Assembly (NCBI GenBank): GCA_026128865.1
Contig: JAHCJE010000015.1
Location: forward strand, 1-35,360
Source: Phycisphaeraceae bacterium
GTDB taxonomy: Bacteria; Planctomycetota; Phycisphaerae; Phycisphaerales; UBA1924
Reading direction: 5' to 3'
Length of the DNA: 35,360 nt
Program-made: the position numbers and the translations under genes
Shown here: one piece after another, positions 32,963-34,610 of the stretch
Position numbering within the stretch: the stretch's first letter is position 1
How the letters are laid out: the number at the start of each line of letters is the position of its first letter
Notes under the pieces: model-generated
The model's input: only the letters and a program-made list of their open reading frames with translations
The model's database searches: none
Told to the model about the DNA's origin: nothing

Positions 32963-34003
32963 TCACACCTCCCCACTCGCGAGCGCGAGCAGTCTCCCCA
33001 CCGCGGCCGGGTCAAGATTCCCGCCGCTGATGACGATGCCCACGGTACGGCCGGCGACTTCGTCGGGCTGCTCGCGGGCGAGGCGGAGGAGGCCGGCGAG
33101 AGCGAGCGCGCCGGTCGGTTCGACGACGAGTTTGAGCCGTTCCATGGCGAGCAGGGCCGCTCGGGCGATCTCGCCCTCGGACACGATCATCATGTCGTCC
33201 ACGTGCCGCGTCACCAGCGCGAAGGTGTGGCGGCCGAGGTACGGCGTGCGTGCGCCGTCCGCGATCGTCGGCGGGTTGCGGACGGTGCGAAGCACGCCGT
33301 CGCGGAAGCTGCTGGTCGCGTCGTCGGCGAGTTCCGGTTCGACGCCGATGATGCGGCAGGTGCGGCAGAGGGCGCGCGTGGCGACGGCGCACCCCGAGAG
33401 CAGCCCCCCCCCGCCGCACGGAGCGAGCAGCAGGTCGATCGGCCCCGCGTCCTCGCACAGTTCCAGGCCCGCGGTGCCCTGCCCCGCGATGACGGCCGGG
33501 TGGTCGTAGGGGGGCACGACCGTCATGCCGCGCTCGGCGGCGAGGCGCGCCCCGAGTTCCTCGCGCACCGTCGTCGCGGGGTCGTAGAGCACGACCTCGC
33601 TCCCCTTCGGCGCGCGCTCCAGGTACGCCCGCGTCGCCGCGAGTTTCACGCGCGGGGCGTTCTCGGGCATCACGATGACGGCCGGCGCGCCGAGCAGCGA
33701 CGCCGCCAGCGCGACCGCCTGGGCGTGGTTGCCGCTGGAGTACGCCAGCACGCCCGCGCGGCGCGCCGCGTCGTCGAGCGAGGCGATGGCGTTGTACGCG
33801 CCGCGGAACTTGAACGCCCCGACGCGCTGGAGGTTCTCGCACTTGAACCGCCCCAGCGCGCCCGTCATGAAATCGATCGAGCGCGACGACATGACCGGGG
33901 TGCGGTGGGCGACGCCGTGCAGCCGGTCCGCGGCGGCACGGACGTCGTCGATGGTGACACAGTCGCGGCGGGAGGCGTCGGGGGGCGAGCCTTCGGCGTG
34001 CAT
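32963..34003 (-). CDS. threonine dehydratase/serine racemase-like PLP enzyme
   Basis: A 346-aa cytoplasmic PLP enzyme of fold type II. The Schiff-base lysine is Lys65 in GAFKFRGAYN; SSGNHAQAVA and GGGGLLSG bind substrate and PLP phosphate. Members deaminate threonine or serine or racemise serine. There is no C-terminal ACT domain, so it is a catabolic or racemase-type enzyme rather than an isoleucine-regulated biosynthetic one. The start at 34003 is preferred: an ATG 15 codons earlier lies in the loop of a terminator. No ribosome binding site is clear. The gene ends 3 nt from the convergent PhoH gene and is preceded by a structured RNA with an attenuator-like terminator. Confidence 0.85.
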   Translation of the reverse strand: MHAEGSPPDASRRDCVTIDDVRAAADRLHGVAHRTPVMSSRSIDFMTGALGRFKCENLQRVGAFKFRGAYNAIASLDDAARRAGVLAYSSGNHAQAVALAASLLGAPAVIVMPENAPRVKLAATRAYLERAPKGSEVVLYDPATTVREELGARLAAERGMTVVPPYDHPAVIAGQGTAGLELCEDAGPIDLLLAPCGGGGLLSGCAVATRALCRTCRIIGVEPELADDATSSFRDGVLRTVRNPPTIADGARTPYLGRHTFALVTRHVDDMMIVSEGEIARAALLAMERLKLVVEPTGALALAGLLRLAREQPDEVAGRTVGIVISGGNLDPAAVGRLLALASGEV

Positions 34004-34026: not shown

Positions 34027-34061
34027 AAAAAGGCCGCCGGCCCTGCATCGGGACGGCGGCC
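34027..34061 (-). terminator. Rho-independent terminator just upstream of dehydratase gene
   Basis: On the minus strand an 8-bp stem (34061-34054 with 34039-34032), extended by 3 inner base pairs, is followed directly by TTTTT (34031-34027). Its end lies 23 nt before the dehydratase start at 34003, so it either ends a stand-alone RNA or attenuates the downstream gene. Confidence 0.88.
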
Positions 34062-34126
34062 GAGATTCGGACTCCGTAGGAGTCGCTCAGGGCTGCACCG
34101 CGGGCAACCCGTCGGTCTGCCCGCTT

Positions 34127-34162
34127 CTAGCGGGGCAGCCCTCGCGTACAGGCGTGCTTCAC
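34127..34162 (-). CDS. 11-residue leader peptide ORF
   Basis: GTG start, sequence MKHACTRGLPR then TAG. Its ribosome binding site is exceptional: AAGGAGGTGATCC, 13 nt matching the standard 16S 3' end, with 7 nt from GGAGG to the start. The ORF spans the 5' arms of helices P1 and P2, and the stop codon is in the P2 loop, so translation would remodel the RNA. There is no run of one amino acid as in classical attenuators; it has a single Thr codon and ends Leu-Pro-Arg-stop. A 39-codon frame (34159-34278) overlaps its start by 4 nt but has no ribosome binding site. Confidence 0.5.
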   Translation of the reverse strand: MKHACTRGLPR

Positions 34163-34359
34163 TGGATCACCTCCTTCAGAAAGAGCCATCCCAGCCGCGC
34201 GGCGCTGCACACGCCGCCGCCGGGCTTCTCCCCCCCGGGCCGTCGCCCGGGGCACACCGCCCGCACGGCTTGGGCCATGCGGTCGTCGCGGGTCGTCCGG
34301 CCGCCTCGGGGGGTGGTTCTCACGCCCTCGGCCGGGTCGGCGCTCGCCGCGATGTCGGC

Positions 34360-34387
34360 ATTATCGTCCGACTTTTTCCCTACGCAA
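34360..34387 (-). promoter_or_regulatory. sigma70-like promoter for the structured RNA
   Basis: Minus-strand TTGCGT (34387-34382), 16-bp spacer and GATAAT (34365-34360). The -10 box keeps five of six consensus positions. It follows a terminator for the operon upstream without a gap. Confidence 0.6.
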
Positions 34388-34424: not shown

Positions 34425-34610
34425 TCAGCCCTCGAACTCGTCAAAGGCCCCCTGGGCAGCCTGCTCGTCGAGGTACTTCTGGAAGTCCCCCATCTTGTAC
34501 GACACGAAGCAGAAGACGTGGTGCAGCGTCAGCCATTCGATGTCGCCCGGGTCTTCGTCGAGGTCCTTGCGCAGGCGGTTCAGTTCGGCGAGGATCGTCT
34601 CGGCCTTCAT
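34425..34610 (-). CDS. 61-aa protein coupled to metal ABC permease
   Basis: A 61-residue acidic, largely helical soluble protein (starts MKAETILAELNRLRKDLDED). The middle holds LTLHHVFCF, two His and a Cys close together. I know no family for it. An AGGAGAG ribosome binding site precedes the ATG, whose first bases overlap the permease stop (ATGA, 34607-34610), so it is translated with the transporter and may serve it, for example as a small regulator or metal-handling partner; that is inference. Confidence 0.75.
   Translation of the reverse strand: MKAETILAELNRLRKDLDEDPGDIEWLTLHHVFCFVSYKMGDFQKYLDEQAAQGAFDEFEG

Follow-up and report, generated by a model that had tools for sequence, protein, structure and literature searches.

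A conserved planctomycete RNA gene with a micro-ORF behind a 15-nt complement of the 16S rRNA 3' end

What does a structured RNA with a tiny reading frame do when its terminator ends just short of an enzyme gene? Such an RNA lies on the minus strand of the window analyzed here, a 35,360-nt stretch of contig JAHCJE010000015.1 from a Phycisphaeraceae bacterium (GCA_026128865.1). A sequence-only reading had proposed an attenuator with a leader ORF upstream of a threonine dehydratase-like gene, with an independent small RNA as the alternative. Judged by comparison with related genomes, it is a conserved structured RNA gene across planctomycete bacteria, and it probably does not control the neighboring enzyme gene. 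We favor, with a probability of about 0.6, a free-standing RNA of ~327 nt whose micro-ORF would be translated and whose 3' half would be refolded by the ribosome.

The RNA, its helices, the conservation of its ORF, its terminator, its free-standing position and both alternative pairings of its 3' half were established by computation; all features are on the minus strand. The sigma-70-like promoter noticed earlier (TTGCGT-16-GATAAT) is found at 34387-34360, with similar TTGNNN/GATA(A/C)T pairs at a similar distance, ~185-242 nt 5' of the Shine-Dalgarno sequence (SD), in 29/39 relatives; transcription is predicted to start near 34353. The 5' domain opens with a hairpin, H5 (ACGACCG...CGGGCGG, 34257-34286), present in 29/39 relatives, whose ends are conserved and whose stem is hypervariable yet self-complementary. 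It is followed by the strong hairpin P0 (GGGC-GACG-GCCC, 34251-34234), already recognized in the sequence-only reading, with double changes in 6/6 pairs and 96.6% of cells paired, and by a two-part helix P2 (CCGGC...GCUGG plus an inner stem, 34190-34224), whose components (helices 4 and 5) are paired in 94.4% and 85.0% of cells with double changes in 8/10 pairs. Downstream come a 15-nt SD (34162-34176), a micro-ORF of 11 codons (34127-34162), a four-segment bistable element (34090-34141), a small hairpin of non-conserved sequence (GACUC-CUACG-GAGUC, 34070-34084) and a Rho-independent terminator (34061-34027; -25.9 kcal/mol). As the earlier reading had it, the last T of the terminator stands 23 nt before the ATG (34003) of a PLP-dependent ammonia-lyase gene (32963-34003, 346 aa), which we count as a neighbor and not as part of the RNA gene. 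The RNA of 327 nt folds with z = -3.1.

The structure is borne out by covariation. In an alignment of 36 related sequences, from which the structure was itself partly read, the 34 pairs are matched in 88.8% of cells, versus 34-46% for slid structures; both sides change in 26/34 pairs, and none of 500 shuffles reaches any covariation measure. The result is the same with 50 aligned sequences, where again 0/500 shuffles reach any measure. R1, a covariance model built from 36 members, gives the window 120.6 bits and has matches in 74/248 genomes of the class; outside it, members reach 31-69 bits, among them L021, L022, L015 and L023 at 42-69 bits. The pattern AAGGAGGTGATCNNDTG, comprising the extended SD and the start codon, occurs in 61/201 genomes of the order, usually in one copy per genome, with no hit for the reversed control, and in 22/294 genomes of a phylum sample, where the control gave 2. 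Its matches share a TTGNNN/GATAAT-like pair, an end-conserved 5' hairpin, hairpins with GACG loops, the SD, a short ORF, a hairpin and a terminator.

The SD is a feature absent from the sequence-only reading. At 34176-34162, AAGGAGGUGAUCCAG is perfectly complementary to the 16S rRNA 3' end CUGGAUCACCUCCUU, and we refer to it as a super-SD. The 16S end was read in two genomes of the same genus and seven more from the family and order; the window's own assembly gave no match for it. This 15-nt complement is near-invariant in relatives, some members having one SD mismatch. A 16S rRNA fragment or pseudogene was ruled out: the match covers the 15-nt tail only, in antisense, and is followed by a start codon. 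In Staphylococcus aureus, extended SD helices serve productive initiation (PMC13009471).

The 11-codon ORF of the earlier reading runs from GTG (34162) to TAG (34127), encodes MKHACTRGLPR and is kept among relatives. The start codon is GTG in 59/59, though the search pattern also admitted ATG and TTG, and the frame meets a stop after 9-19 codons in all 59, versus 2/59 and 1/59 for the other two frames. Indels keep the frame: the distance from start to switch block is 18, 21, 24, 27 or 36 nt, multiples of 3 once regex artefacts are removed. Of the four off-frame distances, three come from misplaced pattern matches and the fourth (L157) from slippage in a GGGG run. Unlike this distance, the spacer after the stop has a length that is not a multiple of 3. 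Two further observations concern ORF length: at an R1 match in L224, a 20-codon Cys-rich in-frame insertion (VIEDCTTCPSDCCTRTPYHCSDCCGQKQSGLR) separates DCT from SGLR-stop, while in another family of the class (L222, L225, L228) the same super-SD precedes ORFs of only 6-7 codons (MKGDKR, MKGGKH, MTGGTKR).

The ORF end also takes part in the bistable element. Its segments are 1 (34141-34130, at the end of the ORF), 2 (34124-34118), 3 (34107-34100, after a GACG loop) and 4 (34098-34090). In state A, 1 pairs with 4 and 2 with 3; in state B, 1 pairs with 2, with the stop codon in the loop, and 3 pairs with 4. In a permutation test that compared cognate with swapped partners in 21 non-redundant sequences, all four pairings stand out (1:4, z = -9.4; 2:3, -6.7; 1:2, -3.9; 3:4, -4.8) against the control pairings 1:3 (-2.1) and 2:4 (-1.1). 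Since cognate partners out-pair swapped ones in both states, both appear to be under selection, state A more strongly. Two earlier claims thus hold, namely that the helices are mutually exclusive and that the ORF stops in a hairpin loop. The 1:2 hairpin itself exceeds GC-matched controls in strength by only a modest margin (p = 1.5e-4, from related sequences that are not independent). As a trait of all super-SD RNAs, the stop-in-loop hairpin was rejected: it is weak against simple controls (p = 0.012) and absent in non-Rhodobacteraceae alphaproteobacteria (p = 0.9), and we claim it only for Planctomycetota for this reason.

Does this switch govern the neighboring gene? The proposal that translation of a leader ORF sets transcriptional read-through into the dehydratase gene draws on the mutually exclusive helices, on an enzyme ATG 23 nt past the terminator and on same-strand synteny in nine loci (L001, L160, L161, L017, L018, L052, L116, L178, L179). 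These nine, however, are all that the expected synteny amounts to among 64 loci; the 55 others, where no dehydratase follows, still keep the RNA and mostly its terminator, and their neighbors are unrelated, several of them convergent. The terminator, present in 52/59 relatives, looks constitutive, because no excess cognate pairing or covariation links switch segments 1-4 to its arms (abs z of at most about 2), whereas the two arms do covary (z = -18). This permutation test on the terminator arms found no anti-terminator competing with the terminator stem. The contact once suspected between GCCCTG and CAGGGC in the terminator loop is already lost in L161, a relative of the same genus, and neither the window's ORF nor the family consensus has a run of Thr, Ile or other regulatory codons. 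Synteny and the terminator test lead us to reject dehydratase attenuation at the family level, and a cis-acting attenuator is improbable overall; the independent small RNA that the sequence-only reading had kept as its alternative is the better reading, most copies having their own promoter and terminator. In the window's genus, read-through probably matters as a local arrangement, because the 23 nt leave no room for a promoter of the enzyme's own and the lyase would depend on it. For the enzyme, labelled threonine dehydratase-like in that reading, the best name is threo-3-hydroxyaspartate ammonia-lyase (NCBIfam NF005454, 458 bits, cut-off 452). Upstream of the RNA, more than half of the 64 loci retain a metal-ABC permease, a 61-aa protein or both. 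The 61-aa protein (34425-34610, minus strand) lies between permease and RNA, is 57-97% identical among these loci and has no match in Pfam or NCBIfam.

We infer that the RNA is transcribed and translated, that the ribosome drives its refolding and that its output is exerted in trans, as a ribosome decoy or sensor, and not on the neighbor. The gene would make a terminated transcript of ~327 nt with a structured 5' domain, the 15-nt 16S complement, a micro-ORF of ~11 codons and the four-segment 3' switch. A 30S subunit would dock very tightly on the super-SD and initiate at GUG; the ribosome would read a few codons, move onto segments 1 and 2 and halt within the 1:2 loop. Where it stands at the stop codon would then select between 1:4 plus 2:3 and 1:2 plus 3:4, and the shape of the RNA may in this way report how often ribosomes load and finish. 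As the transcript ends in its own terminator, we would expect the output to be in trans or to operate via held ribosomes.

Two other accounts compete with this one. Without any switch, the super-SD might simply titrate free 30S subunits or mask the 16S 3' end, the ORF merely permitting release. The near-invariance of the 15-nt complement speaks for such a decoy, as does a downstream CUCC anti-SD mimic in Rhodobacteraceae RNAs of the same architecture (30/31 loci versus 4.7% of control windows). We consider it unlikely, since on its own it leaves the covarying alternative pairings and the elaborate 5' domain unexplained and would require the RNA to be abundant. Less probable still is an mRNA for a tiny functional peptide, with the family consensus DC(T/M/I)(K/R/Q)GL(R/H)x. 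Here, the conserved frame and a C-terminal motif that recurs in Phycisphaerales have to be set against signs that the motif can be a nucleotide constraint: the conserved Cys codon is TGT in 69/75 cases, in GC-rich genomes, a hint that the RNA is constrained too, and the GLR codons form one arm of a covarying helix. Other families, moreover, encode unrelated peptides such as MKGDKR.

The window RNA belongs to no attenuator or riboswitch class in Rfam 15, as the sequence-only reading had suspected: none of 4227 models matches at its curated cut-off, even with E up to 10. The nearest is CC2171 (RF01867), an alphaproteobacterial sRNA catalogued as non-coding, at 23.5 bits for the window against a gathering cut-off of 75 (E = 0.0087 in the window's own genome). 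Like the window RNA, CC2171 is free-standing and has a super-SD (AAGGAGGUGAUCCAGUG), the GTG start of a short ORF and its own terminator hairpin. Five of the alphaproteobacterial loci scanned pass its cut-off, and their ORFs have 21-25 codons versus 11 in the window. The ~150-nt 5' domain seems to be missing from the alphaproteobacterial RNAs, to which R1 gives only ~9-21 bits, mostly from the SD. Because no homology is found beyond the SD, the likeness seems to be one of architecture rather than demonstrated homology. Within open-licence papers, neither a function for CC2171 nor an account of the window RNA turned up.

Among characterized RNAs, the window RNA resembles dual-function or small coding RNAs such as SR1 of Bacillus subtilis (PMC8501984) and Pos19 of Rhodobacter (PMC5036791): like them it is a candidate sRNA gene that stands by itself and contains a short ORF, here with predicted translation. 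RNAs of that kind carry an ordinary SD and a longer ORF and work by pairing with mRNAs; the window RNA differs in an SD that is the full complement of the 16S 3' end. Its putative coding-sRNA features, read from sequence, are a promoter in 29/39, a terminator in 52/59 and the ORF frame in 59/59 relatives. It is also reminiscent of amino-acid attenuators of the trp/his type, including rnTrpL/peTrpL of Sinorhizobium (PMC7298713), with which it shares a short leader ORF, four pairing segments, exclusive helices and a terminator. Unlike them, it lacks a regulatory codon run and a conserved downstream gene, its terminator lies outside the switch and its stop codon sits in the 1:2 loop. By analogy, its mode of action may combine that of a leader-peptide switch with that of a dual-function sRNA.

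Rfam 15 does not recognize this family, whose most conserved part is directed at the ribosome itself. When named genomes were scanned for the super-SD pattern, there were at least 116 matches, mostly Alphaproteobacteria among those listed, together with Phycisphaerales, Gemmatimonadota, Krumholzibacteriia, Acidobacteria, Myxococcales, a spirochaete and a Nitrospinota bin; a few of the listed matches are ordinary mRNAs with longer ORFs. The family also suggests that super-SD micro-ORF RNAs recur in many phyla and that CC2171 may carry a translated micro-ORF. It is conceivable, though rather doubtful, that Planctomycetota, Alphaproteobacteria and several other phyla share an RNA class in which a 14-15-nt super-SD docks the whole 16S 3' end and translation of a 5-25-codon ORF flips a switch, as a global sensor of, or brake on, free ribosomes. 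If it is true that the RNA senses or titrates 30S subunits, this would be RNA-based control of translation capacity.

Several related loci show features of their own. In Azospirillum (L094, L137), the super-SD precedes an ORF of 57-59 codons that resembles a secreted small protein and is not a micro-ORF. In Rhodobacteraceae (L029-L139), the CUCC mimic is found 90-190 nt downstream of the super-SD; predicted pairing between the two could let the RNA hide its own ribosome-binding site. Most Rhodobacteraceae (L032, L038, L114 and others) have arfB (ribosome rescue) as the gene following the RNA, and one planctomycete family (L023-L026) has prfB (release factor 2) there; both products are RF-1-domain proteins, which may be coincidence.
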